64,000 nt of DNA from Xanthocytophaga agilis (lineage in GTDB: Bacteria > Bacteroidota > Bacteroidia > Cytophagales > 172606-1), in the NCBI RefSeq assembly GCF_030068605.1, contig NZ_JASJOU010000001.1:310001-374000 (forward strand), read 5' to 3'. Positions 1,966 through 39,114 of the stretch are shown here, one piece after another. The translations under genes were made by a program, and so were the position numbers. Below the pieces are notes generated by a model. It was not told the origin of the DNA, searched no databases, and saw nothing but the letters and a program-made list of their open reading frames with translations. Position 1 is the stretch's first letter; the number at the start of each line of letters is the position of its first letter.

Positions 1966-3150
1966 ATGAAAAAACTCTCAGTGGTCGTATACTTGTTTTG
2001 CTTGACTCAGTTTGTGGCTGGTCAAAATGCTATTGATGTTAAAAAGCAATTTACGCTGGCTGCTCAGCAATATGAATTGTTGTTAAAGAGCCATCCTGAT
2101 ATTACTAAGTTCCCCCAGTCGTCCAATGCCGATGGCTCACCTCGGGATATGGCTTCTTCCTGGTGGTGTAGCGGATTCTTTGGTGGTTCCCTCTGGTATT
2201 TATATGAATACACCAAAGATCCCAAATGGAAAGATGCAGCTCACAAATGGTCGATGGCTGTAGAAAAGGAAAAGAATAACACAACTACTCATGACCTGGG
2301 ATTTATGTTGTATTGCCCCTTTGGAAATGGCTACCGACTGACTAAAAATGAGACATATAAAGATATCATGCTGACTGGAGCAAAATCACTGGCAACCCGT
2401 TTTCATCCGGAATATGGTGTGATCAAATCATGGGAGAAGTTTGCCAATTATGATTATCCAGTCATTATTGATAATATGATGAATCTGGAGTTCCTTTTCT
2501 GGGCTGCGAAAGAATCTGGTAATAAAGAGTTTTACAACATATGTCTTTCACATGCAGATAGTACTATTAAAAACCATTACCGGAAAGATAATAGCAGCTA
2601 CCATGTAGTATGTTACGACAAAGGAGGAAAAGTACTGGCTAAAAAAACGGCTCAGGGTTATGCAGATGAGTCTGCTTGGGGACGTGGTCAATCATGGGGG
2701 TTGTATGGATATGTGGTCATGTATAGAGAGACCAAAAATCCGGTTTATCTGAAAGAAGCGGAAAATATTGCTGACTTTATTCTCAATCATCCAAACCTGC
2801 CAAAAGATAAGGTTCCTTACTGGGATTATAATGCTCCCAATATCCCCAATGAAGAACGGGATGCGTCTGCGGCTGCCATTGCTTCTTCTGCGTTGTTTGA
2901 ACTGGCAGAGTATTCCAAAAAAGGAGATACGTATGTAAAAAATGCCATAGAAATGCTGAAAAGTCTGTCTTCTCCTGCTTACCTGGCTCCTATAGGGAAG
3001 AATAATAACTTTATTTTGATGCATAGTGTTGGACATAAACCACAACACAGTGAGGTAGATGTACCATTAGTATATGCCGATTATTATTATCTGGAAGGTT
3101 TATTACGCTATAATGCATGGCTTCAGAAGAAAAAAGGTAAAAAGTCATAA
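1966..3150 (+). CDS. GH88-family unsaturated uronyl hydrolase, exported
   Basis: Probably removes the unsaturated uronic acid left at the non-reducing end of oligosaccharides by polysaccharide lyases. The protein has 394 residues: a signal peptide ending near AGQ (about 20), then an alpha/alpha-barrel. Two Asp positions typical of GH88 are visible, D110 in THDLGFM and D169 in IDNMMNL, followed by WGRGQSWGLYGY around residues 230-242. Length matches the family. It is the first gene of the arabinan locus on this strand and is followed by a small hairpin (3150-3167). In this setting it could trim pectic or arabinogalactan backbone fragments once arabinan side chains are removed, which is inference. 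GH105 is the related alternative, but the motifs favour GH88. Confidence 0.82.
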   Translation: MKKLSVVVYLFCLTQFVAGQNAIDVKKQFTLAAQQYELLLKSHPDITKFPQSSNADGSPRDMASSWWCSGFFGGSLWYLYEYTKDPKWKDAAHKWSMAVEKEKNNTTTHDLGFMLYCPFGNGYRLTKNETYKDIMLTGAKSLATRFHPEYGVIKSWEKFANYDYPVIIDNMMNLEFLFWAAKESGNKEFYNICLSHADSTIKNHYRKDNSSYHVVCYDKGGKVLAKKTAQGYADESAWGRGQSWGLYGYVVMYRETKNPVYLKEAENIADFILNHPNLPKDKVPYWDYNAPNIPNEERDASAAAIASSALFELAEYSKKGDTYVKNAIEMLKSLSSPAYLAPIGKNNNFILMHSVGHKPQHSEVDVPLVYADYYYLEGLLRYNAWLQKKKGKKS

Positions 3151-3213
3151 TCAGCTTGTTAGCTGATCGAGTAAAATAAATCCGGGTGAAAAGCATTACT
3201 TCTTATCCGGATT
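3150..3213 (+). terminator. Two hairpins after GH88 gene
   Basis: ATCAGCT-TGTT-AGCTGAT (3150-3167) starts in the stop codon, and AATCCGG / CCGGATT (3179-3185 / 3207-3213) follows. Neither has a clean T-tract. They probably end or attenuate GH88 transcription ahead of the separate operator for the next gene. Confidence 0.4.
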
Positions 3214-3221
3214 GTTGCATA

Positions 3222-3240
3222 TTGTGTGTATATGACACAA
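3222..3240. promoter_or_regulatory. Predicted AraR operator, GH43-like gene
   Basis: TTGTGT-GTATATG-ACACAA, a perfect 6-bp palindrome with a 7-nt spacer, 40 bp before the 3280 start. The same architecture precedes araR and araB. Assignment to AraR is inferred from this co-occurrence. Confidence 0.7.
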
Positions 3241-3279
3241 ATCTATTTTGATCGACCATTTTGATTCTATTGCTTATCA

Positions 3280-4236
3280 ATGACTACTTTTTCAAATCGC
3301 CTCTTTTTGTTTTTGAGTATCTTGTTTCTGCACATTCAATATAGTAATGCACAGAATGAAATCTATTTATTCTCCTATTTTGTTGATAATGGACAAGATG
3401 GATTACACTTTGCCTATAGCCAGGATGGACTAACCTGGCAAAAACTGAATGATGGCAAATCGTTTCTACAACCTACTATAGGAAAAGATAAACTAATGCG
3501 TGATCCTTGTATTACTCAGGGAGCAGATGGAACCTATCATATGGTATGGACAAGTGGATGGAATGATCAGATTATTGGGTATGCATCTTCCAAAGATCTG
3601 ATGCATTGGTCCGAACAGAAAGCAATTCCTGTTATGGAACACGAGCCCACAGCTAAAAACAGCTGGGCTCCTGAAGTATTTTATGATAAAAAAACTAAGC
3701 AGTTTCTGATTTTCTGGGCTACAACCATTCCTGGTCGGCATTCAGATATAGCTGATTCTGAAAATGAAAAAGGTTTAAACCATCGGATTTATTATGTGAC
3801 CACAAAGGATTTTAAAACTTTCAGTAAAACCGAAATGTTTTTCAATCCGGACTTTAGTGCAATTGATGCCACAATCTTCCAGAAAGGCAAATGGTACTAT
3901 ATGTTTGTCAAGAATGAAAACCCCAATCCACCTCAGAAAAATATCCGCATCACCCGTTCCCGAAATGCAGCTGGACCTTATCCAGTAGAAGTGTCAGGAC
4001 CGATTACAGGTAAATATTGGGCTGAAGGCCCTTCCCCCTTACAAGTAGGAGAGTATACGTATTTGTATTTTGATAAATATACACAACATGCTTATGGGGC
4101 TGTTAGATCAACAGATATGGAAAACTGGGAGGATGTATCTGATAAAGTTAGATTTCCTGAAGGTGTACGTCATGGTACTATGTTTACAGTGACTAAGTCT
4201 ACTTTTGACCAGATGAATGCTTCTATTACTAAATAG
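3280..4236 (+). CDS. GH43-like five-bladed beta-propeller glycosidase, exported
   Basis: A 318-residue exported protein with a signal peptide of about 25 residues ending near SNAQ. The three acidic positions expected of a GH43-type propeller are present: Asp in MRDPCI, Asp in SAIDATIF and Glu in YWAEGPS. Blade-like repeats (YAYSQDGLTW, YASSKDLMHW, YVTTKDFKTF) are clear. The likely substrate is an arabinose-substituted glycan, given the locus, but the sequence is distant from the three canonical GH43 enzymes downstream and may belong to another GH43 subfamily. A predicted AraR site sits just upstream, so it is probably induced by arabinose independently of the GH88 gene. It is convergent with the sigma gene. 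Confidence 0.75.
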   Translation: MTTFSNRLFLFLSILFLHIQYSNAQNEIYLFSYFVDNGQDGLHFAYSQDGLTWQKLNDGKSFLQPTIGKDKLMRDPCITQGADGTYHMVWTSGWNDQIIGYASSKDLMHWSEQKAIPVMEHEPTAKNSWAPEVFYDKKTKQFLIFWATTIPGRHSDIADSENEKGLNHRIYYVTTKDFKTFSKTEMFFNPDFSAIDATIFQKGKWYYMFVKNENPNPPQKNIRITRSRNAAGPYPVEVSGPITGKYWAEGPSPLQVGEYTYLYFDKYTQHAYGAVRSTDMENWEDVSDKVRFPEGVRHGTMFTVTKSTFDQMNASITK

Positions 4237-4656
4237 GAACTTTATTTTATAAGAGGGGTCAATCTCAGTCAGATAGAAGAAAAGACATAAGCTATTCAAA
4301 TGTTAAGGGAAGTAAGTTACTGCAATTTGGGAATATTTTTTGCGCATAGCTTACTGCAAATTATTTTTTAGTAAGTGCAGGATTGTATCACTGATTAGCT
4401 GAAAGATTGCTTTTTAATCACAATAGTTTTGTTTCCGTGCATTATTCACCGTAATTTCTATTTTGACCAGAACTCCGATTACTTTTCCTATTACGCTTTA
4501 TTCACGGCAAAATATTTTTCAAACGGAATTCTCGGCAAAACATCTGACTGTTATAGACTATACACACAAGATTTGTCTAACATCAGTTGTAGGGAAAGAA
4601 TAGTCAATCGCATTCATTGAGCAATTGTTTTAGTGTTTTTAACTTTAAACAATTGC
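4237..4656. other. Convergent intergenic region with 28-bp-period repeats
   Basis: This 420-bp gap lies between the GH43-like gene and the ECF sigma gene. It contains a TGCGCATA element near 4338, repeated TTACTGCAA words, and a degenerate 28-bp periodic array at 4444-4540. No believable coding sequence is seen. Confidence 0.6.
4444..4540. repeat. Degenerate 28-bp tandem repeat array, copy 1
   Basis: Units begin at 4444, 4472, 4500 and 4528 (ATTCACCG, ACTCCGAT, ATTCACGG, ATTCTCGG), exactly 28 bp apart. The boundary motif TTTTGACC-A-GAACTCCGATTA matches, mostly with transitions, the array at 58467-58606. The period is not a multiple of three and no coding frame is kept. Confidence 0.65.
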
Positions 4657-4659
4657 TCA
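4618..4659 (-). terminator. Hairpin at end of ECF sigma gene
   Basis: Perfect 13-bp arms (4618-4630 and 4647-4659) with a 16-nt spacer overlap the sigma stop codon. There is no strong T-tract on the minus strand, so termination is only probable. Confidence 0.45.
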
Positions 4660-5241
4660 GGCGAGTTCAGAGTGTAACTTGAAATTGTATAATAATGAAG
4701 ATAAAGACTCTAAGGAACGATAAATTAATGCACGGGTAGATTTTATTTTTCCTATCTGCATTATATCTGTGATCTCCTGATAACTGAGATTTTCGTAAAA
4801 GTAGAGTATTACAGCTTCCCGCTGTTTCGTAGGTAATTTATTAAATGCGTTTTCGAGGGTATGCTTTGTTTCAAAATTGAAGTATTCAGCAAACGCCTCA
4901 TTTTGGACTAGAAACTCTACTCCAAATCCATTACCATCCTCAATCCCATCCAGATAGGAATGCTTTTCATCTTTTTTAATGGCTCTGGTTAGTTTATTAC
5001 GAATACAGGCCAGCAAATAGAACTTTATAGAAGTGGTTTGTCCAAGGTTTTTACGGTTTTGAATTAATTCACAGAATAAATCCTGTATACAATCTCTTAC
5101 CAGTTCACCATTGGAGGTGAACTGCCGACCATAGGTATATAATTTACCCACATATTGACTATATATAGTAGTCAATGCTTCATTACTGCCCATTCTAAAC
5201 TCTTTCCAGAGTTGCTCCTCATCGTGTAAAGGTACTATCAT
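4657..5241 (-). CDS. ECF sigma factor, FecI type, of the arabinan locus
   Basis: An RNA polymerase sigma factor that should drive the neighbouring SusC/SusD operon when released by its FecR partner. Region 2 spans roughly the first 85 residues (EEQLWKEFRMG to SIKFYLLACIRNKL), and region 4 lies near the end (AFNKLPTKQREAVILYFYENLSYQEI). I chose the ATG at 5241 because it leaves the usual ten or so residues before LWxxFRxG. An in-frame ATG at 5271 would lengthen it by ten residues, but an AraR-like palindrome lies across that segment. It is divergent from fecR, whereas such pairs are usually co-directional. The family and partner are clear; the exact target promoters are not. Confidence 0.88.
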   Translation of the reverse strand: MIVPLHDEEQLWKEFRMGSNEALTTIYSQYVGKLYTYGRQFTSNGELVRDCIQDLFCELIQNRKNLGQTTSIKFYLLACIRNKLTRAIKKDEKHSYLDGIEDGNGFGVEFLVQNEAFAEYFNFETKHTLENAFNKLPTKQREAVILYFYENLSYQEITDIMQIGKIKSTRALIYRSLESLSSLLYNFKLHSELA

Positions 5242-5252
5242 ATGCAGTAGGA

Positions 5253-5271
5253 TTGTGTCATTTTTACACAT
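5253..5271. promoter_or_regulatory. AraR-like palindrome at sigma gene start
   Basis: TTGTGT-CATTTTT-ACACAT: same spacing as the perfect sites and one mismatch in the second arm. It lies immediately before the preferred sigma start (5241), suggesting that AraR also controls the sigma factor. Confidence 0.55.
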
Positions 5272-5531
5272 TTTTATGTATAAAAAATAGCCGAAAAGGC
5301 TTACTACAAACCTATGGAATATTTTTTAAAAAAACTATGAATAGTCCTAGAAAAATAATTCCCTTGCTGACCAACGCTATGTAAATAGTTTTATTTCACC
5401 TTGTTAAAGGTCAAATTATTGAACTAGAAATACCCTAAATAAAATTATTTCCTTATACGATAAAATTTTTTTGAGTTTTGGTATGGGCATTTGAACACCT
5501 TGTGTCTTTCTATATATGAAACCGAGAAACT

Positions 5532-6530
5532 ATGTATGTAAATCAGCTAAAAATTGACGAGTTGCTTGTTGATGAATCTTTTGTAAAGTGGGTAAAAAAT
5601 CCGGATGAACAAACGACTGTTTTTTGGGAGCATTGGTGTCTGAAGCATCCCGAATATGAGAAAGAAGTATCAATTGCCAGAAATATAGTTTGTGGAATAA
5701 CCTATGAGAAAACCTATGAACTGACAAAGTATGAATCAGATACTATGCTGGCCAATATTCTTCAGTTCGAGAGGCAAATGAGAATACCGGAAGCTTCAGA
5801 AGACAAAGAAAATAATAACATCTTAAGATTTAGACCTTCTATTTGGGTAGCTGCAGCTTCTATAGTAATTCTGATTGGTTCTGGAGTGAGTTGGTGGATG
5901 TGGTCTATAAGAGATTTGCAGGAACTGACCAGCAAGATTCAGCAAAAGAAAGTACGATTACCTGATGGTTCTGTAGTCACAATGAACTCTCAAAGTAAGC
6001 TGATCTATCCAGCTCGATTCTGGGGAAAGAGACGAGAAGTAAAGATTGAAGGCGAGGCTTTTTTTGAAGTGGAAAAAGATGCAGAACATCCTTTTGTTAT
6101 TCATACAAACCATACAGAGACTACTGTGTTAGGAACTTCCTTTAATGTTCGGGCAAGAAAGAATGAATATTCAGTGGCCGTGATGACAGGTAAAGTACAG
6201 TTTCGAAGTAAACAACAAAAAGTAATTCTACTACCAGGGGAAATTGGTATGGCAGATAATACTATTCGGAAAACCATTTTCAACTCCAAAAAGGTAATTG
6301 GCTGGAAAGATGGAATTCTACTTTTTGAACAAGATAATTTTGAGTATGTATTCAAAACTCTCGAAGAACGATATGGTGTACATATAGTTGTGGCACCTAA
6401 TACCTTATTGAAAGGGCGTTACAGTGGAGAGTTTAAAAATGAAAGTCTGGAAAATGTATTGACAGGAATTGCTTATACTTCCCGCTTTCAGTTCAAGATT
6501 GATAAAGACAAAGTCATTATTTCTAATTAA
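5532..6530 (+). CDS. FecR-type anti-sigma factor
   Basis: An inner-membrane anti-sigma factor that holds the ECF sigma until the periplasmic STN domain of the TonB-dependent transporter signals substrate. The 332-residue protein has a cytoplasmic N-terminus of about 110 residues, one membrane segment at about 113-130 (IWVAAASIVILIGSG), a FecR domain (KKVRLPDGSVVTMNS, GEAFFEV, HTTVLGTSFNVRA) and a C-terminal DUF4974-like domain (LEERYGVHIVV, GRYSGEFKNESLENVL). It is divergent from its sigma gene and 183 bp ahead of susC. The ATG at 5532 is the first one and gives the normal length. Confidence 0.9.
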   Translation: MYVNQLKIDELLVDESFVKWVKNPDEQTTVFWEHWCLKHPEYEKEVSIARNIVCGITYEKTYELTKYESDTMLANILQFERQMRIPEASEDKENNNILRFRPSIWVAAASIVILIGSGVSWWMWSIRDLQELTSKIQQKKVRLPDGSVVTMNSQSKLIYPARFWGKRREVKIEGEAFFEVEKDAEHPFVIHTNHTETTVLGTSFNVRARKNEYSVAVMTGKVQFRSKQQKVILLPGEIGMADNTIRKTIFNSKKVIGWKDGILLFEQDNFEYVFKTLEERYGVHIVVAPNTLLKGRYSGEFKNESLENVLTGIAYTSRFQFKIDKDKVIISN

Positions 6531-31020: not shown

Positions 31021-32931
31021 ATGATTGCATCATTTCCTTCGCTGGCAGCTGCTTTTGCTGCATACCCCAATTGTATTGGGATTCAACTCCATGAATATAT
31101 TTATCATTCCCTTGTTATTGAGTATAGGCTGGCTTTAGCTGGCCCGGACAACATTTATTTTCAGGATATTACTATTCTATCAACTGATCAGGATTTGCTG
31201 GAACAAGAGATAATGAGTCAGAAACATTGGCAGGTACTGGTTTTGTTAATGAGGGGTTCAGTAGGATATCTGACAAGAAGAATAGCCCCTCAGATTGGTG
31301 TATTTAAAAATTTAAAGGAACTGACAATTGAATTTGGCTGTCCGGAATATCCGACCTTTCCTGTGTGTTTGAATGGATTACCTATGCTGGAAAAATTATC
31401 TGTTCAGGAGGTAACCGTAGAGCTTAGTGAACAACTAACTCAAGTAAAGAGCTTTTCCCTAAAAAAGGGTAAGCTATCGCAACTGGAAGAACTCCTGTCT
31501 TTCCTCAACCCGGATGTTCTGACCTATCTGGCTATACAAGAAACAACGCTGACTGAGTTGCCTGAAAGTATTGTCCGGTTTACACAATTGGAAGTGCTGA
31601 ATCTTGGTGAAAACAAAATAAAAGTGCTACCGGAAGGAATTATGCAGATGGAAAAGTTGAAAAAGCTTTCCTTGTATAATTCTCCTCTTCAAAATGTAGG
31701 TGGGGTGAGTGGTGCTGCTGTGCTCAAGTTGATTCAGGAATGTAGCAAACGAAAACTTTCACAGTCTGTAAGGGCAGTGTATCTGAATCTTTTCCAGAAT
31801 AATCTGACCAGTGCGGATAGTATGTCAACAGAGGATTTGCTACATGCACTCAGTTTTGGCTTACTAAATGAAAGGGCAATGCCACTGTTGGAAAAGCGGA
31901 TAACATCACCATTCCAGAAGGGAACAGATCTTTCCAGACAGCAGGTGTCTGTACTCGGAAAAATGAAAGGATATTCTTCAGAAGAAATCATAGAGCAATT
32001 CAAAAGAAACAACATCCAAGCTACCGATAGACTTACCCCACAAACTACCCTGGTGTGTATAGGAGAACAGCTCACACAAAAGCAGACTGAAGAGATTTGT
32101 AAACGAAAACTGCCTATTGCGTTGCCTATTCATGTACGTGATTTTTTACAGAAGCTTGAAGTTCCCTATTTGGTTAAATCAGAGGATTCTGTTCATGAAA
32201 ACCTGTTACGGCTGATTAGCTCCCTGGATGAAGACAATACTAAACTAGCTGCTCAGATCATGTTGGCAGGTGGGATTCCGGAGCCATTGTTGTATCCGGT
32301 TTTGTTGCTGAATGCACTGAGAGGAAAGGGGTATAGTATCCATTTTAAAAAAGTGCTGGAAAAATATCTTCCCCGTGAGCACTATGAGGTGATTAAGAAA
32401 CAACAGAAAGCTGGTTTTTATAAGACTGTAGATGAGTTGTTTAAAAATCCTCTTTTTAGTGCCATAGAAACAGCCAAGGCAGGATTGTCTTTGTTTGCAC
32501 TGGATGAGCGGACCCGAAAGGTGGGTAACAATAATCAAAACTTCTACCGGCAATTTCATTATATCGTTAAACGTTGTTTTGTAGCAGGTGGCGATCCTGC
32601 CCGACTGGCTTATCAGGCACAACTGGAAGGTACTACACTCAATGTCTTGTTTTCAGATGACAGCTTCTTTGGCAAATTTAAACTGCCTGTTGAAATTCTG
32701 GAGTTTAAGCAGATTGAAAAAATCATCTGTGCACAGAGTGTGATAAATGAGGTGGCAACAAATCAGAAAACACTGAAGAAAATGAAAAATCTGAAAGAGC
32801 TAACTCTGTTTCATTTTACTGGCAATAGTAGTAACTACTCAGATGTGGCGTATCTTAAAAAGCTAGAGGAAGATGTGGTTTTGCTCAAACAAAACTTTCC
32901 ACATGTACAGATAACCCTACAGACTTATTAA
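31021..32931 (+). CDS. Leucine-rich-repeat protein with BRCT-like segment, paralog A
   Basis: A 636-residue protein without signal peptide or membrane segment, so probably cytoplasmic. LRR units run from about 95 to 225 (LEVLNLGENKIKVLPEGI, LKKLSLYNSPL). A BRCT-like segment follows at about 305-375 (VSVLGKMKGYSSEEIIEQFKRNN, TTLVCIGEQLTQKQTEEI), then an alpha-helical region (IMLAGGIPEPLLYPVLLLNAL) and a short C-terminal LRR (LKELTLFHFTGN). The same order appears in the 934-residue protein at 36310, including a shared cysteine motif (VKRCFVAGGDP versus IKNCFAGDYF). Function unknown; a scaffold or interaction protein is plausible. The BRCT call is by eye. Confidence 0.7.
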   Translation: MIASFPSLAAAFAAYPNCIGIQLHEYIYHSLVIEYRLALAGPDNIYFQDITILSTDQDLLEQEIMSQKHWQVLVLLMRGSVGYLTRRIAPQIGVFKNLKELTIEFGCPEYPTFPVCLNGLPMLEKLSVQEVTVELSEQLTQVKSFSLKKGKLSQLEELLSFLNPDVLTYLAIQETTLTELPESIVRFTQLEVLNLGENKIKVLPEGIMQMEKLKKLSLYNSPLQNVGGVSGAAVLKLIQECSKRKLSQSVRAVYLNLFQNNLTSADSMSTEDLLHALSFGLLNERAMPLLEKRITSPFQKGTDLSRQQVSVLGKMKGYSSEEIIEQFKRNNIQATDRLTPQTTLVCIGEQLTQKQTEEICKRKLPIALPIHVRDFLQKLEVPYLVKSEDSVHENLLRLISSLDEDNTKLAAQIMLAGGIPEPLLYPVLLLNALRGKGYSIHFKKVLEKYLPREHYEVIKKQQKAGFYKTVDELFKNPLFSAIETAKAGLSLFALDERTRKVGNNNQNFYRQFHYIVKRCFVAGGDPARLAYQAQLEGTTLNVLFSDDSFFGKFKLPVEILEFKQIEKIICAQSVINEVATNQKTLKKMKNLKELTLFHFTGNSSNYSDVAYLKKLEEDVVLLKQNFPHVQITLQTY

Positions 32932-32980
32932 TAAAAGTATACTGACAGAGGGATAGATAACAAGTCTGGAATTTTATCTC

Positions 32981-33029
32981 ATGCGCATAGTTCTATGGAA
33001 TTTTTTGTTTTGACCTGAACTATGCGCAT
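32981..33029. repeat. 13-bp inverted repeat ATGCGCATAGTTC
   Basis: Perfect 13-bp arms (32981-32993 and 33017-33029) with a 23-nt spacer, followed on the plus strand by AATATTTTTT. It could terminate the LRR gene. The TGCGCATA core recurs at 4338 and 58609-58654. Confidence 0.6.
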
Positions 33030-33101
33030 AATATTTTTTGCGGTGAATTCTGATCAAACACCACTCATGCGGTGAATTAAACGCATTGACAGTTTTGCGG
33101 T
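32989..33101. repeat. Degenerate 28-bp tandem repeat array, copy 2
   Basis: Units start at 32989, 33017, 33045 and 33074, with lengths 28, 28, 29 and 28. Each unit ends in GACCT or GCGGT, and the last three begin with GAA. TTTGACCTGAA at 33010-33020 is identical to 58551-58561. Confidence 0.6.
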
Positions 33102-33303
33102 TTATTGATGGCAAAAACTTTTTTGATTCGGATGACTTGAATCTCCTCTTCTAATTGTCTTGTGCTTATAACTATGCACAAGTCTTCTTCATGCTACTAA
33201 CTATGCGCAATAAATCTACTATCAAAGAAAAAAGCTGGCTTACCATCTACAAAATGCTGTCAATATAAAGCCAAATACCTCTGAAAAGCCACTTACTGCC
33301 CTC

Positions 33304-33840
33304 TTACCACTCGAAATCCTGTATCTCTACTGTGGTAGGATTACGCTTGATAACCCTGATTTTTTGATTGAATACATCAATTCTCCATTCTGTATCTTTT
33401 CCGAATTCAGTGATTAGGCGTTTTCCCTCTCCATTTTTCCGGAAACTCCATAATTTGTTAATTTCTTTGGTCTTATTAAACTGACAAACCAATAGTCTAT
33501 CCAAAGTTTCACGTTGATCTATGGATGAGTTGTTCTGTATCTTACTGCTACTATAATTAAACTCAATTCGTTTTCCCTCCTCCACATACGACGATTCAAA
33601 CAGGAAATGGGTAATTTCTTCTTCCTCATGTACTGTGTCAAATAAATACCTGGTTTTGCCGGTGTTGATTTCGTAGACAGCAATATTACTCAATAAGGAG
33701 CGGTCATATTCCTCCTCTTTTTTGCCGCCCATTAAGCCTTTGCTTTTTTTGAGAGGGTTAAGTGAGAAATAAAAAATATTAAGTTTTCGATCGTATTCTT
33801 CTATACTGCGAAAATCGGTATATCCCATTTTAAAACTCAT
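33304..33840 (-). CDS. Hypothetical protein, 178 residues
   Basis: I do not recognise this protein. It is charged and soluble, lacks a signal peptide or membrane segment, and has alternating beta-like stretches (NIAVYEINTGKTRYLFDT, RLLVCQFNKTKEINKLW, WRIDVFNQKIRVIKR) suggesting an all-beta fold such as a partial propeller. The codon pattern looks genuine and the frame is uninterrupted. It stands alone between the aminotransferase and a repeat-rich gap. Confidence 0.6.
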   Translation of the reverse strand: MSFKMGYTDFRSIEEYDRKLNIFYFSLNPLKKSKGLMGGKKEEEYDRSLLSNIAVYEINTGKTRYLFDTVHEEEEITHFLFESSYVEEGKRIEFNYSSSKIQNNSSIDQRETLDRLLVCQFNKTKEINKLWSFRKNGEGKRLITEFGKDTEWRIDVFNQKIRVIKRNPTTVEIQDFEW

Positions 33841-33918
33841 GATTTTTGTACAAGTAGCTAGTTGATTTTTGACAAACTAAACAGTTTTCCTGTTACTAGG
33901 CATATTGCCTGGTTATAA

Positions 33919-33951
33919 ACCTTTATTGATAATAGCCTTATCAATAAAGGT
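33919..33951 (-). terminator. Terminator after aminotransferase
   Basis: A 14-bp perfect stem (ACCTTTATTGATAA with 33938-33951), 5-nt loop, 16 bp beyond the aminotransferase stop. Confidence 0.6.
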
Positions 33952-33966
33952 GTTTCTATTTTGAAT

Positions 33967-35127
33967 TTATATCTTCATCAATCGTTCTACTGCCCGTTCC
34001 AGTGTTTCTTCTTTCTTGGCGTAGCAAAAGCGTAAGAGTTTGTTATCAGTTTTGTTATTATAAAAAACAGATAGAGGAATAGTGGCTACGCCAATTTCTT
34101 TGGTCAGACGAATGGCATAATCGGTGTCAGACTCATCCGTAATATGTCCGTATGATGCCAATACAAAGTAACTGCCTCGGCTAGGCAGTAAAGAGAAGCG
34201 GGTTTGTTGCATCAGGTTCACAAAGAAATCCCGTTTCTGCTGATAGAATTGAGGCAAAGACTCATAGGGCTCTGGATTCCTGAGGTATTCGGCCAGAGCA
34301 ATCTGAAGAGGGGTGAAGGACGAAAACGTCAGGTACTGGTGCACTTTCCGAAACTCGGTTGACAGTTCGCGAGGGGCTATACAATAGCCTAACTTCCATC
34401 CGGTAACATGATAGGTCTTGCCGAAAGAAGAGATTACAAAGCTTCGTTCCCGTAATTCTGCATGTCGTAACACACTCTGATGTTGTTGCCCATCAAAGAT
34501 AATATGCTCATATACTTCATCACTGATCAGATAAATGTTCCTATCTCTCAACAGAATTGCCAGGAATTGCAAATCCTTTTGTGTCAGTGTGGTGCCGGTT
34601 GGGTTGTGTGGTGTATTGATAATAATGGCTCGGGTACGGCTGGTAATGGCATTTTGCAGTTGGGAAAAGTTGATTGAAAAATCATCGGATGACAAGGACA
34701 CAAATACCGGAATCCCTCCGTTAAGTTCAATAGCAGGTACATAACTGTCGTAGCAAGGCTCCAATACAATCACTTCATCGCCCGGACTGACAATGGCACT
34801 GATAGCAGCATACAAGGCTTCTGTACCTCCGGAAGTAACTGTAATTTCGGTATCAGGATTAGGAGCATACCCATACATACGTTCTGTTTTGATGGCAATT
34901 TGTTCCCGTAACTCAATGGTACCCGGCATAGGAGCATATTGATTGTATCCATCCTGCATTGCTTTGGTTACTAGCTGAATAATATCCTGAGAAGCGTTAA
35001 AGTCCGGAAAGCCTTGACCCAGGTTAATGGCCTTATGCTCCTGAGCCAGTTTGGACATAACAGTAAAGATGGTGGTGCCTACATTGGGTAGTTTGGAAGA
35101 GAGTATGTTGGATTGTGTATGGTTCAT
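33967..35127 (-). CDS. PLP aminotransferase, methionine aminotransferase type
   Basis: A fold-type I, class I/II aminotransferase, probably acting on methionine or other hydrophobic or aromatic amino acids (YbdL-like). The start at 35127 (MNHTQSN) gives 386 residues; an ATG at 35151 adds eight. Seen: NLGQGFPDFNASQDI near the start, NQYAPMPGTIELREQIA, NTPHNPTGTTLT, SDEVYEHIIFDG, the PLP Lys in SSFGKTYHVTGWKLGY, and the C-terminal Arg in LLRFCYAKKEETL. It is a single-gene unit. Confidence 0.88.
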   Translation of the reverse strand: MNHTQSNILSSKLPNVGTTIFTVMSKLAQEHKAINLGQGFPDFNASQDIIQLVTKAMQDGYNQYAPMPGTIELREQIAIKTERMYGYAPNPDTEITVTSGGTEALYAAISAIVSPGDEVIVLEPCYDSYVPAIELNGGIPVFVSLSSDDFSINFSQLQNAITSRTRAIIINTPHNPTGTTLTQKDLQFLAILLRDRNIYLISDEVYEHIIFDGQQHQSVLRHAELRERSFVISSFGKTYHVTGWKLGYCIAPRELSTEFRKVHQYLTFSSFTPLQIALAEYLRNPEPYESLPQFYQQKRDFFVNLMQQTRFSLLPSRGSYFVLASYGHITDESDTDYAIRLTKEIGVATIPLSVFYNNKTDNKLLRFCYAKKEETLERAVERLMKI

Positions 35128-35414
35128 CAGAAATGAAAAGTTAGTACACAAAAATAATGGTATTTAGCAGATTGTATATAGGCTTATGTTTTCTATAATT
35201 GAATAAGTGGAACGCATCAAATGACCTTCTTTTTATAGATTTGGTAAAAGCTTTCATCTTTGCCTCCTGTAAGTACAAGAATCCATAAAAAGCAATATAC
35301 TTCAACATTCCTCTATATTTCTCCCGAAGGTGTAAAAGTTGTTTTTTAATCTCACTCCATTCTGTTTTAAGTTTTTTATATATTTTCACAAGTTTTAGTA
35401 ATGTGGGGATAGTT

Positions 35415-36044
35415 TTACCGTTTTGTAAACTTATCAATCCAGTATTTTGCTCTCGCAGTATCCAGTAATCCATGAGGTTCTGGGTAATTTTCCTCAAGAA
35501 TACTGATAACAGTATTTCCACAGGGATCAGTTTTTATTCCAGGATACTTTTTTTCTAATGAATCTAATCGTTCTCGATTGATCTGCTTTAATTTTTCAGT
35601 AGGTAGAGAATCTGTTCTAACATAAAATAATGGATCTATATAATTATTGATAAGCACCAGTTTTACATCCACTAATTCATTCACATTTTTGGAATAAATA
35701 TCTTCTTCTTGGGCTAAAATTAATTTTTGAGGGATTTCTTTAAAAAAGAGAACCTTTCGTCTAGTAACGCCATTTCTAGGTAAATGATATGAATAATAAC
35801 ATATCAGGTAAGAATATGAGTTTTTTTTATTAGAGTGTTGCCAGAATTCATTGACGAGTAGCTGCGCCTCAAATGAATCCTTGGATTTTCTAACGGTAGA
35901 GTCCAGATTCAATTCATCCACAGACATAAAATGTAGACTTTTGCGAGAAGAGTCTGTTTCTGCAATGATTTTATCCAGACTATTGGAGGAAGTACAAGAT
36001 GAGAATATTAGTAGAATTATACTTACTGATAGGAATGGTTTCAT
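35415..36044 (-). CDS. Hypothetical lipoprotein
   Basis: A 209-residue predicted lipoprotein with a short signal and lipobox Cys in IFSSCTSS (about 17). The mature part is hydrophilic and has no family I recognise. Notable stretches are YLICYYSYHLPRNGV and DPCGNTVISILEENYPEPHG. It stands between the aminotransferase and the large LRR gene. Confidence 0.6.
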   Translation of the reverse strand: MKPFLSVSIILLIFSSCTSSNSLDKIIAETDSSRKSLHFMSVDELNLDSTVRKSKDSFEAQLLVNEFWQHSNKKNSYSYLICYYSYHLPRNGVTRRKVLFFKEIPQKLILAQEEDIYSKNVNELVDVKLVLINNYIDPLFYVRTDSLPTEKLKQINRERLDSLEKKYPGIKTDPCGNTVISILEENYPEPHGLLDTARAKYWIDKFTKR

Positions 36045-36262
36045 TGATGCAAAAGAATAATCTGATCAGATAGACGTTGTGTTAGATATATACGATTCAG
36101 AGTTATAAAATTTTCCATAAATTTTTTTGGGAGTTTTAAATCTCAAGAATCAATGTTGATATCTGCTTTCATTGTATCTGATTATCCTATAGGTATTTAT
36201 AGAACAGAATAAGTTATCTGTTTAAACCAACAAAAATCAGTTTGAGCAAATATATTTCTGAC

Positions 36263-36301
36263 AGAAGCCAGACATGTTGTTTCTACGTTTGTCTGGCTTC
36301 T
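36263..36301 (-). terminator. Terminator after LRR paralog B
   Basis: AGAAGCCAGACA with TGTCTGGCTTCT, 12-bp perfect arms and a 15-nt loop, just beyond the stop at 36310. The T-tract on the minus strand is weak. Confidence 0.6.
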
Positions 36302-36309
36302 TCTCTTTC

Positions 36310-39114
36310 TTAACGAAATTGACAGGATGGCATTCGTTCTTTTAGGATATCAAGATTTTCAACCCTATTTGTTTTTAATTCCAGAGATTCCAATGGGAGG
36401 GTTGAGAGGCTTAATGGAAGCTTGTGTAAATTATATTGAAAAATTACCAAATGTTTCAGATTTTTCAATTGGGCAATGGATTCTGGAATTTCAAGTATCT
36501 TACTATGGTAGATAGTCAGGTTTGTCAGGGATGTTATATGAAGCATCTCTTCAGGAAATGAAGTCAGGTGATTGCCTTTAAATGTGATTTTCCGGATGGT
36601 CGGTTGTACCTGCTGGAGTAAAGTATTGGCTTCCTCAGTTGTGAGAGCAGCTTTTAGCTCTAGTTCATTCGTTTTTGCAAGCCATTCAGGAGTGGTTTGT
36701 TCAATATAGAGCTGGCGACGGGGATCATTCGCATCTGAGTGTTCCATAAAGTAGTCGCCTGCAAAACAGTTTTTTATCACCTTTTCCTTTTTGAGCCAAA
36801 CCAGAAAGGCCATAGACGCTGTATCCAGACCTGGAAATTCTTGTTGGTATTTGTAGATCTGAAAACGATTGTAACTATACCTGGATGTATCATCAATTAT
36901 CTTTGCCTTGTGAGCAAGTGCCTGAAGAATTACTCCATCTGTTGTATTTTTCTTGATAAGCTGTCTAGCTTTGGCGCGAGTATCTGGATTATCTGAGGTT
37001 TTGGCAATGACCAGTAGATCTATAATCAGTTCAGCTGGTACACCTGTCGATTCAAGTAATTGTACTCCTAGTGCTTCATTGAGCGACTCCGGACTACGCA
37101 AAAGCTTCAGTACAGATTCGGTTGAATTATCTGCCCGCCCTTCTTCGGATAAGAGATACGGTTGTTCAACCTGATTCAGAAAGTCAGTCAGTTCTTTTTC
37201 GCTAAATAGAAAATAATTCTTTTGGGTATTTCCATTCTCCGGAAACTTAGGCGAGCTTCCGACCAGTATATGAGTGACTTTATCAGTTAATGAACTGCTG
37301 TACCCAATATTGGCTGCAGTCAGTTTGTTTTTGATATCTGTCTTTTTATAAGAAGTATTGCCCAGAATGGCTACTATATCTCCTGGTTTTAATGGTTTGT
37401 CTGACAGAGACTGGTACTTTTCATTAAACACAAATATGTTTTCAATTAGTGCCTGATGCATAGGGGCATAATTGATCGAAAAACCTTCAAAAAATACCTG
37501 TTGAGGCCGATTTTCCAGCCGTTCCTGATGGAAGTTATTTAGATACACATGCAGGTAAATTTTGCGCTTTTCCTCGTCCATATCCGAATGCTGGTTTTCT
37601 GCCAGATGTCTAAATGGATAAAACCAGTTAAAAATCTCAGGCTCCAGTTGTCTGGGTGCAAATTGTGTATCTGTGGCATGTGTGCTTACTTTCCATAATC
37701 GGGTAAGTTTGTACAAGTCGATTGATAAACGTTGAATGCCAGTTCTTGAAATTTCTATTGAGCCTAATTGGGTACACTGGCTAATAGTAGAGGGCAGACT
37801 TACAAGTTGTGGACTATCGGGTAGTTCTAAATTTGTCAGATTTTGCAGATTGCCGATGCTTTCCGGAAGTTGAGAAAATATACCGCTAAGAGTCAGAGAC
37901 TGTAGTTTACTTAGTCTACCAATACTTTCTGGAATACGTTGAAGTGATTTTGGGGTTATCACTTTTAGCATTTCAAGGTTTTCACAGTCACCTATTGTAT
38001 CAGGAAGGTCAATAAGTGTTTCATTTATATCAATTGTTTTCAGGTGTTTAAGTTTTCCTATTTCCGATGGTAAAGTGGTAAGTTTATTCTTATCGGTACT
38101 GAAACCGTGTATATAAAGTAATTCCAGGGAGTCGAGTCCGCCTATTTCAGAAGGTAGTTCGGTCAAATCACCAAGGTTAATATAGAGAGTTTTCAGCTTT
38201 TTGAGATTACCTATAGAAGAAGGTAGCGTTTCAATTGGATACCAATCTAGTTTCAGTTCTTCCAGATTGGCTAAGTTTCCTATTGATTCCGGAAAGGGCA
38301 GGACTTCTTTCGTTCCAGGCTTCAGCTTCAGTTTTCTTAACTTCTGTAGCTTGCCAATAGCAGGGGATATACCAAAAGGATCAGATTCCTCACTAGCCCA
38401 CGAACCGGAACGTACTTCTATACTCTCAAGTTCGGTGAGTTCACCTATTACGTCAGGGATTGATTGAATAGGTAGGCGATTATTTATCTCTAATTCCTGT
38501 AATTTTTTTGAAAATGAAAGCTGGGCCGGAAAAGAAGGAAGTTTCGGATTTTCGTACAAAGAGAGTTTTGTAAGCTTGGGTAAACTTTTCAGAATCAACA
38601 GATCCTGAAGTTCGTCACATCCACCGATTTTAAGTTCTTGCAGAGAGGAAAGATCAGATACCAGTGACGGCAGCGAAGTAGCTTGAAAGGATATAATCCA
38701 CAGTTTTCTCAATGAAGTGAGCCTTGGGAGTATTTCCGACAAATGTCCGTCATCCTTGAAACTCCTAAGGGTAAGTTCTTCGAGATTGGAGAGGTTGCCA
38801 AAAGATAACGGAAGTATACAGACAGCTCTGGATTCGATCTGAAGTTTTTTGAGATTTTTTAACTGTCCAATATCCTCTGGTAATGTAAGTAATTGCTCCG
38901 CACGATTAATTTCCAGTTCTTCCAGATTGACCAGTTGACCAATAGGAGGCATCTGCTTGCCTGTGTAACCAGAAATAGCCAGCTTGGTAAAATGAGTAAT
39001 TTCCGGATAGATACTCTCCAGGTCCTGAGAAGAAGCTTTGGTAATAAGTCCTTTGTCATATTCATGAAGTAACTTATCCCGATCTTCCGTATAATAGGGT
39101 TTAATAGAATACAT
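36310..39114 (-). CDS. Large leucine-rich-repeat protein with BRCT-like segment, paralog B
   Basis: A 934-residue, apparently cytoplasmic protein. About 18-20 LRRs of about 23 residues occupy 40-490 (consensus LxxLxxLxLxxxxLxxLPxxIGxL, e.g. LKKLKTLYINLGDLTELPSEIGGL). Then come a linker, a BRCT-like segment at about 588-665 (GDIVAILGNTSYKKTDIKNKL, VTHILVGSSPKF), an alpha-helical region (LLESTGVPAELIIDLLVIAK) and a second LRR block at about 850-934. It is a paralog of the plus-strand protein at 31021, which keeps the order with fewer LRRs. No enzymatic domain is evident. The large LRR number suggests protein-protein recognition. Confidence 0.75.
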   Translation of the reverse strand: MYSIKPYYTEDRDKLLHEYDKGLITKASSQDLESIYPEITHFTKLAISGYTGKQMPPIGQLVNLEELEINRAEQLLTLPEDIGQLKNLKKLQIESRAVCILPLSFGNLSNLEELTLRSFKDDGHLSEILPRLTSLRKLWIISFQATSLPSLVSDLSSLQELKIGGCDELQDLLILKSLPKLTKLSLYENPKLPSFPAQLSFSKKLQELEINNRLPIQSIPDVIGELTELESIEVRSGSWASEESDPFGISPAIGKLQKLRKLKLKPGTKEVLPFPESIGNLANLEELKLDWYPIETLPSSIGNLKKLKTLYINLGDLTELPSEIGGLDSLELLYIHGFSTDKNKLTTLPSEIGKLKHLKTIDINETLIDLPDTIGDCENLEMLKVITPKSLQRIPESIGRLSKLQSLTLSGIFSQLPESIGNLQNLTNLELPDSPQLVSLPSTISQCTQLGSIEISRTGIQRLSIDLYKLTRLWKVSTHATDTQFAPRQLEPEIFNWFYPFRHLAENQHSDMDEEKRKIYLHVYLNNFHQERLENRPQQVFFEGFSINYAPMHQALIENIFVFNEKYQSLSDKPLKPGDIVAILGNTSYKKTDIKNKLTAANIGYSSSLTDKVTHILVGSSPKFPENGNTQKNYFLFSEKELTDFLNQVEQPYLLSEEGRADNSTESVLKLLRSPESLNEALGVQLLESTGVPAELIIDLLVIAKTSDNPDTRAKARQLIKKNTTDGVILQALAHKAKIIDDTSRYSYNRFQIYKYQQEFPGLDTASMAFLVWLKKEKVIKNCFAGDYFMEHSDANDPRRQLYIEQTTPEWLAKTNELELKAALTTEEANTLLQQVQPTIRKITFKGNHLTSFPEEMLHITSLTNLTIYHSKILEIPESIAQLKNLKHLVIFQYNLHKLPLSLSTLPLESLELKTNRVENLDILKERMPSCQFR

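Follow-up and report, generated by a model that had tools for sequence, protein, structure and literature searches.

Two LRR-BRCT genes on opposite strands

The window analysed here is a 64,000-nucleotide stretch of the 9.77 Mb genome of Xanthocytophaga agilis (Cytophagales). It contains two intact ORFs encoding LRR proteins, here designated A and B, located 3.4 kb apart on opposite strands in agreement with a preliminary description of this DNA. Protein A (636 aa) is encoded on the + strand from 31021 to 32931 and consists of LRRs, best recognized by Pfam at residues 167-226 (31519 to 31698), a BRCT domain (residues ~304-378; 31930 to 32154), a helical block that contains GGIPEPLL (residues ~389-453; 32185 to 32379) and a C-terminal part, all on this strand. 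Protein B (934 aa) is encoded on the - strand from 36310 to 39114 and, in the same orientation, has a long N-terminal LRR array (residues ~41-475; 37690 to 38994), a BRCT domain (residues ~577-652; 37159 to 37386), a helical block that contains GVPAELI and is HEAT/ARM-like in a model (residues ~662-727; 36934 to 37131), and terminal LRRs recognized by Pfam (residues 839-891; 36442 to 36600).

The common order of LRRs, a BRCT-like segment and a helical block, first proposed from inspection of the sequence, is borne out by Pfam and by a profile of the family. The N-terminal LRRs score above Pfam cut-offs in both proteins, and BLASTP aligns A with B (E 6e-11, 24% identity) over 376 columns that run from the LRRs through the BRCT into the first portion of the helical region. 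The earlier limits of the BRCT segment, 305-375 in A and 588-665 in B, are close to those given above, and the GxP motif is present at residue 417 in A and residue 691 in B, and in 24 of 33 family cores. Two further shared features stood only in part. The Cys motif is found in both proteins (CFVAG at 519 in A, CFAG at 783 in B) but a paralog alignment revealed that some paralogs lack it, and a terminal LRR region is present in B whereas the C-terminal part of A has no Pfam LRR match and is LRR-like by eye only. With NCBIfam, A and B have LRR matches only, all below their cut-offs; the type III effector names XopL, XopAE and XopAC that appear there are such matches, and were rejected. Neither PADLOC nor NCBIfam assigned A or B to a family.

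Homology of the shared core to BRCT domains

The core of the family is defined as the BRCT, a domain typical of DNA-repair enzymes, plus the helical block with the pattern RLLxS..N..LA..M..GGIP. Two core alignments were used, one of nine proteins from this genome and one of 33 proteins from several genera. An HMM built from 20 of the 33 rows, none from Xanthocytophaga, detected A (8.7e-34) and B (1.8e-31). None of the remaining ORFs of the window (147 in total), the 2 reversed proteins or the 400 shuffled ones was matched at E<=10. As a profile from other genera retrieves only A and B, the core that they share is real.

When applied to whole proteins, the Pfam BRCT model gives a weak match to B (14.3 bits, E 0.048, cut-off 21.3) and none to A. 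Applied to the 33 single cores, this model (PF00533) matches 21 at E<=0.1, the best at 1.1e-11, and some family members pass Pfam's curated BRCT cut-off. A search of PDB sequences with the own-genome profile had a DNA ligase BRCT as its top match (E 0.0052, positions 9-76), and hhalign aligned the multi-genus profile over 75 columns with 16 BRCT sequences of LigA, the NAD-dependent DNA ligase (97.8%, E 1.1e-12). The corresponding value for the own-genome profile is 96.8%, and control alignments of the core with MoxR and VWA gave 2.0% and 0.5%, respectively. The LigA set comprises 16 of 19 matched stretches (two from locus L123 and one from L125 were left out) and was collected by searching with the core profile, so that the multi-genus comparison is partly dependent on it, whereas the PDB search and the per-core Pfam matches are independent. 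NCBIfam confirmed both ORFs of this set that were submitted as LigA. In the reverse direction, a LigA-BRCT HMM run against the same window, reversed and shuffled sequences placed A (0.024) and then B (0.058) at the top, ahead of the next sequence at 0.27, although all of these are weak scores. The per-core Pfam, PDB and LigA profile matches together identify the segment previously called BRCT-like as a BRCT domain, a homology established at the level of sequence profiles. The fold check proposed with the preliminary description was undertaken with AlphaFold2 on input limited to proteins of the window and their two X. flavus orthologs from locus L004. The mean pLDDT values were 48.6 and 49.1, with the BRCT part mostly <50, and because both models are of such low confidence no BRCT claim is based on them. 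With residues 110-189 of the B-core model as query, the 50 VIA-align matches listed included HEAT, ARM, alphaRep and other helical chains with Z values of 7.4-9.5, which is below the tool's own telling level for helical repeats; this suggests that the helical block of B may be HEAT-like.

As also stated previously, there is no ligase or polymerase domain beside the BRCT in the LRR-BRCT members scanned with Pfam. The match to the LigA BRCT extends over its full length, but the family differs from LigA in having no ligase domains and in a residue of the phosphate pocket. In phosphate-binding BRCTs, an S/T before the conserved glycine contacts the phosphate. This S/T is present in all 16 LigA rows but in only 4 of the 33 family cores, so that the family as a whole does not have the phosphate-binding signature, and its loss from 29 cores favours protein docking over binding of phosphate or DNA ends. 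The same count bears on a reading in which the BRCT serves these proteins to bind DNA ends or repair complexes, and their association with MoxR and VWA genes, described below, is incidental. The LigA BRCT is the closest relative among the comparisons made, and one member, from genome G410, is fused to a WGR domain, a domain predicted to bind nucleic acid in the passages of PMC4275035 that deal with it. Nevertheless, given how few cores retain the pocket S/T and that no repair genes were seen among the operon partners, we regard this reading as very improbable.

Paralogs of A and B

The preliminary description recognized two proteins, but at least 10 full-core LRR-BRCT proteins are encoded in the X. 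agilis genome; member counts are lower bounds, obtained from the best 10 of 74 or 32 of 65 own-genome candidates. The closest relatives of A are found among these other paralogs, leaving the duplication and inversion suggested as the origin of the A/B pair unsupported. A is 45% identical to L026b, a paralog encoded within an operon, versus 24% to B over the matched stretch. In a tree of the cores, A falls within clades of 3 rows (98/90), 5 rows (100/99) and 14 rows (95/84), with B outside all three, and its companions in the two smaller clades are same-genus operon paralogs. A/B duplication-inversion was therefore rejected. With A closer to the operon paralogs than to B, A and B appear to be old, separate members of the family that are now neighbours. 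Elsewhere in this genome (contig C15, L027 10336-14500), there are tandem LRR proteins that open with a block-like motif, ENIxRLLLSGxxxNIxLGLQL, so that the helical block is also present by itself ahead of LRRs.

Operons with MoxR and DUF2201-VWA genes

A feature missed by the preliminary description is the tie of the family to genes encoding MoxR and DUF2201-VWA proteins, evident both in operons and in co-occurrence. Five of the at least 10 own-genome members are encoded in two operons whose other products include a MoxR AAA+ ATPase and a protein of the DUF2201 type, which has a zincin-like domain plus a VWA domain. The L026 operon, with all genes on the + strand, has the order LRR-BRCT, lipoprotein-like ORF, LRR-BRCT, LRR-BRCT, DUF2201-VWA, LRR-BRCT, MoxR. 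In the L087 operon, the VWA gene (995-2200) and the MoxR gene (2272-3381) are followed by an LRR-BRCT gene (3385-6285), with 3 bases separating the last two. Neither a MoxR nor a VWA gene was found beside A and B in the window.

LRR-BRCT and VWA genes are grouped in genomes G001, G002, G053, G079, G197, G203 and G209, with MoxR present too in all except G002, where the contig ends. G410, from a different order of the same class, has an LRR-BRCT gene with WGR and TPRs, a shorter LRR-BRCT gene, a 317-aa ORF, MoxR and VWA. Among the 24 VWA-positive Cytophagales genomes, 8 have a full core in the sequence retrieved with the VWA gene; in G097 and G152 this sequence encodes a block-LRR-TPR protein. 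The WGR domain of the larger G410 member (L138 6320-9790) is N-terminal (E 7.1e-15) and accompanied by TPRs, and the combination of WGR and BRCT in one protein recalls PARP1. In the G002 operon, one LRR-BRCT gene (L086 4241-6221) is split inside the core into two ORFs. A distant DUF2201-like VWA gene in G150 (contig C9, L107) lies amid many short ORFs, an arrangement like that of a phage or mobile element.

The metal-site and ATP-site motifs of the partner proteins are conserved. In the loci retrieved, 25 of 26 VWA ORFs have HExxH, all 26 have a match to DxSGS and 23 have FTDG, one of the three without FTDG being a split frame. The G410 VWA protein has HQILH in place of HExxH, so that peptidase activity cannot be general. 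All 14 MoxR ORFs of the fetched loci have a Walker A motif, and in all 14 the Walker B motif is DDVN (for example, L026 14281-15417). Walker B motifs usually have DE here, with Glu where these MoxR proteins have Asp, a substitution that, judged from the motif, could slow hydrolysis.

Co-occurrence of the core with VWA and MoxR

Of 390 Cytophagales genomes, 19 encode both the core and this VWA subfamily, one the core only (G140), five the VWA only and 365 neither (Fisher p 9e-27, in a test that ignores shared ancestry). Here, the core means a match over BRCT plus block at E<1e-18, found in 20 of the 51 genomes with any match. The other 31 have BRCT-only matches (26 genomes, in 25 of which the frames are 675-727 aa, as for LigA) or block matches without a full core (5 genomes). 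The VWA threshold (E<1e-80) retained 24 of the 26 genomes matched at 1e-10, with G150 and G233 dropped as weak. All five VWA-only genomes (G064, G089, G152, G169 and G177) have block-only matches, and the carriers belong to four families (f1, f14, f18 and f22). The phyletic association of the LRR-BRCT core with the VWA subfamily is thus a direct observation. At the level of the phylum (395 genomes), the core was found in three (X. agilis, G410 and G657) and the VWA search identified six, with strong matches in X. agilis and G410, a partial match in G426 and three weak matches. In G140 and G657, the core is accompanied by neither VWA nor MoxR.

MoxR of this type, searched for in 36 genomes in all, is present in G410 and in 23 of the 24 VWA-positive genomes, the one without it being G002 (72% complete), and in none of 11 VWA-less genomes chosen for the search. 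Twelve of the 24 have the MoxR match and the VWA gene on different contigs, including G020 and G059, which have ~10 contigs each; MoxR and VWA therefore occur together even when unlinked. Similarly, for 11 of the 19 genomes having both core and VWA, the sequence retrieved around the VWA gene contained no full core, although some of these contigs are short.

Relation to known MoxR-VWA systems

In the sections of PMC7159879 and PMC8195603 that describe them, MoxR-vWA ternary conflict systems have VMAP, iSTAND, FtsH or a beta-propeller protein as the third component, with iSTAND2 and TERNS3 added later. The operons of X. agilis and its relatives, although not the A/B locus, have the same plan, in which a MoxR AAA+ ATPase gene adjoins a vWA gene and a third component. 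They differ from the systems in those sections in that the third component is an LRR-BRCT-helical block protein, in many copies, and the vWA protein is a DUF2201 protein with a zincin-like domain. The members scanned with Pfam (E<=0.1 or 0.01) contain LRR, BRCT, WGR and TPR domains only and by this domain content have no VMAP, iSTAND, FtsH, beta-propeller, iSTAND2 or TERNS3, and an approximate pattern for the N-terminal motif of VMAP-type MoxR proteins (WxhapG) matched none of the 14 MoxR ORFs. In the main texts, BRCT and DUF2201 have no occurrence in PMC7159879, and BRCT has none in PMC8195603. No effector domain was detected on the VWA or companion proteins scanned, although the DUF2201 zincin-like domain itself might be an effector.

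The yeh region of E. coli K-12 encodes YehF (WGR), YehI (DUF4132), YehL (MoxR), YehM (DUF5682), YehP (VWA_CoxE) and YehQ (SWIM), and so resembles the present operons, in which large companions are likewise encoded alongside AAA_5 MoxR and VWA proteins. The WGR domain shared by YehF and the G410 member is a further but thin link. The VWA domain is, however, DUF2201 here and VWA_CoxE in YehP, and the yeh region has neither LRR nor BRCT. Homology of the core to YehI was not seen with single-sequence hhalign, a weak test that also failed to match MoxR with YehL, both AAA_5 by Pfam, and VWA with YehP. A MoxR ring with a VWA partner is also characteristic of chaperones of the NorQ-NorD and RavA-ViaA type (for NorQ-NorD, parts of PMC13036017). 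As far as seen, these have one dedicated target and no LRR family, whereas the LRR-BRCT set is multi-copy. NorD is not known to have a zincin domain.

In the portions of PMC4275035 concerned with such fusions, BRCT is fused to the YwqG family and LRR to another TYPP family, never both in one protein, and no description of an LRR-BRCT architecture or system was found in open-licence PMC full text. It is the coupling to MoxR and DUF2201-VWA that gives the observation of A and B its meaning; the MoxR-vWA plan is known, and an LRR-BRCT third component appears, from these sequence comparisons, to be new. Through this coupling, a BRCT domain is found in a context other than that of ligases and polymerases, and the tie of a multi-copy LRR family to one engine subfamily makes target choice by MoxR-VWA testable in a single lineage. 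The DUF2201 zincin-VWA proteins, scarcely mentioned in open-licence PMC text, gain a partner and a possible job.

A candidate recognition component of a MoxR-VWA machine

We propose, with a probability of about 0.5, that the LRR-BRCT family is the multi-copy recognition or adaptor component of a MoxR-VWA machine of Bacteroidota, with A and B as orphan members. Because the family accompanies an ATP-driven remodelling pair, its members are probably interchangeable target-recognition parts. The engine would be the MoxR-type AAA+ ATPase with the DUF2201 protein, in which a zincin-like HExxH domain is combined with a MIDAS-containing VWA domain. Each member would bind a client through its LRRs and would itself be docked onto the VWA/MoxR pair by its BRCT and helical block. 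The MoxR ring would hydrolyse ATP to remodel the client, which may also be clipped by the zincin domain. One or two engines would be shared by several members. As A and B have no adjoining engine gene, they would act in trans with the engines encoded at C1:235-237 kb and C1:1577-1581 kb. The complex itself, client binding, remodelling, any proteolysis and the action in trans are inferred.

The encoding of members beside the MoxR-VWA pair would also be expected if the LRR-BRCT proteins were substrates, matured or assembled by the pair and then doing something else, much as NorQ-NorD acts on its target enzyme in the relevant parts of PMC13036017. We consider this unlikely. One genome has at least 10 members for two engine pairs, and Pfam identified no catalytic or cofactor domain in the members scanned; together with the presence of LRRs, this favours adaptors over substrates. 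A bolder form of the adaptor proposal, in which about ten LRR-BRCT adaptors per genome act as recognition arms that supply one or two common MoxR/zincin-VWA engines with different clients for unfolding and cleavage, is doubtful, although marginally less so than the substrate reading. If true, its logic, although not its ancestry, would be like that of F-box proteins on one ubiquitin-ligase core, and like that of sensor NLRs with common helper NLRs.

Comparison with X. flavus and the possibility of an immune function

A search of genome contigs with B identified a single locus (L004), in X. flavus (X. flava in taxonomy), at which both orthologs (B 95%, A 86%) are present in the same arrangement. 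Synonymous divergence is uneven across this region. Comparison of A with its syntenic ortholog (window 31021-32931 versus L004 15124-17031) gave a dS of 0.54, ~3.7 to 7.6 times the values for four neighbouring genes (0.07-0.15), and B has a dS of 0.17 that varies from 0.03 to 0.36 along the gene. The high dS of A and uneven dS of B look as if segments had been swapped in, and recombination may have replaced A. For this pair of Xanthocytophaga genomes, dN/dS is 0.14 for A and 0.15 for B, with reported 100-codon windows from 0.03 to 0.48, and positive selection on the LRRs was therefore rejected; in some windows of other members dN/dS is 0.6-0.8, on few changes.

A dS of this kind, as after gene replacement, is one of the observations that would fit an immune (conflict) system in which LRR-BRCT members sense an invader and trigger a MoxR-VWA switch, a role suggested earlier for the MoxR-vWA ternary systems. 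The distribution across genomes is patchy, and the plan of MoxR, vWA and third component is that of the conflict systems in the sections of PMC7159879 and PMC8195603 cited above. Several results point the other way and make an immune role improbable: no effector domain was found in the members and engine proteins scanned, the low dN/dS of A and B gives no sign of positive selection, and plasmids searched with the core of B, and phages with the core of A, had no match. PADLOC likewise had no match for A, B, L026c or the VWA and MoxR proteins of L026, its sole match being a weak one of the L087 MoxR to PDC-S01 (4.5e-4). An adaptor role remains the preferred reading for A and B. Within the region shared with X. 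flavus, the flanking genes agree, and the lipoprotein-like ORFs located between A and B (window 35415-36044; L004 10940-12282) differ between the two genomes.
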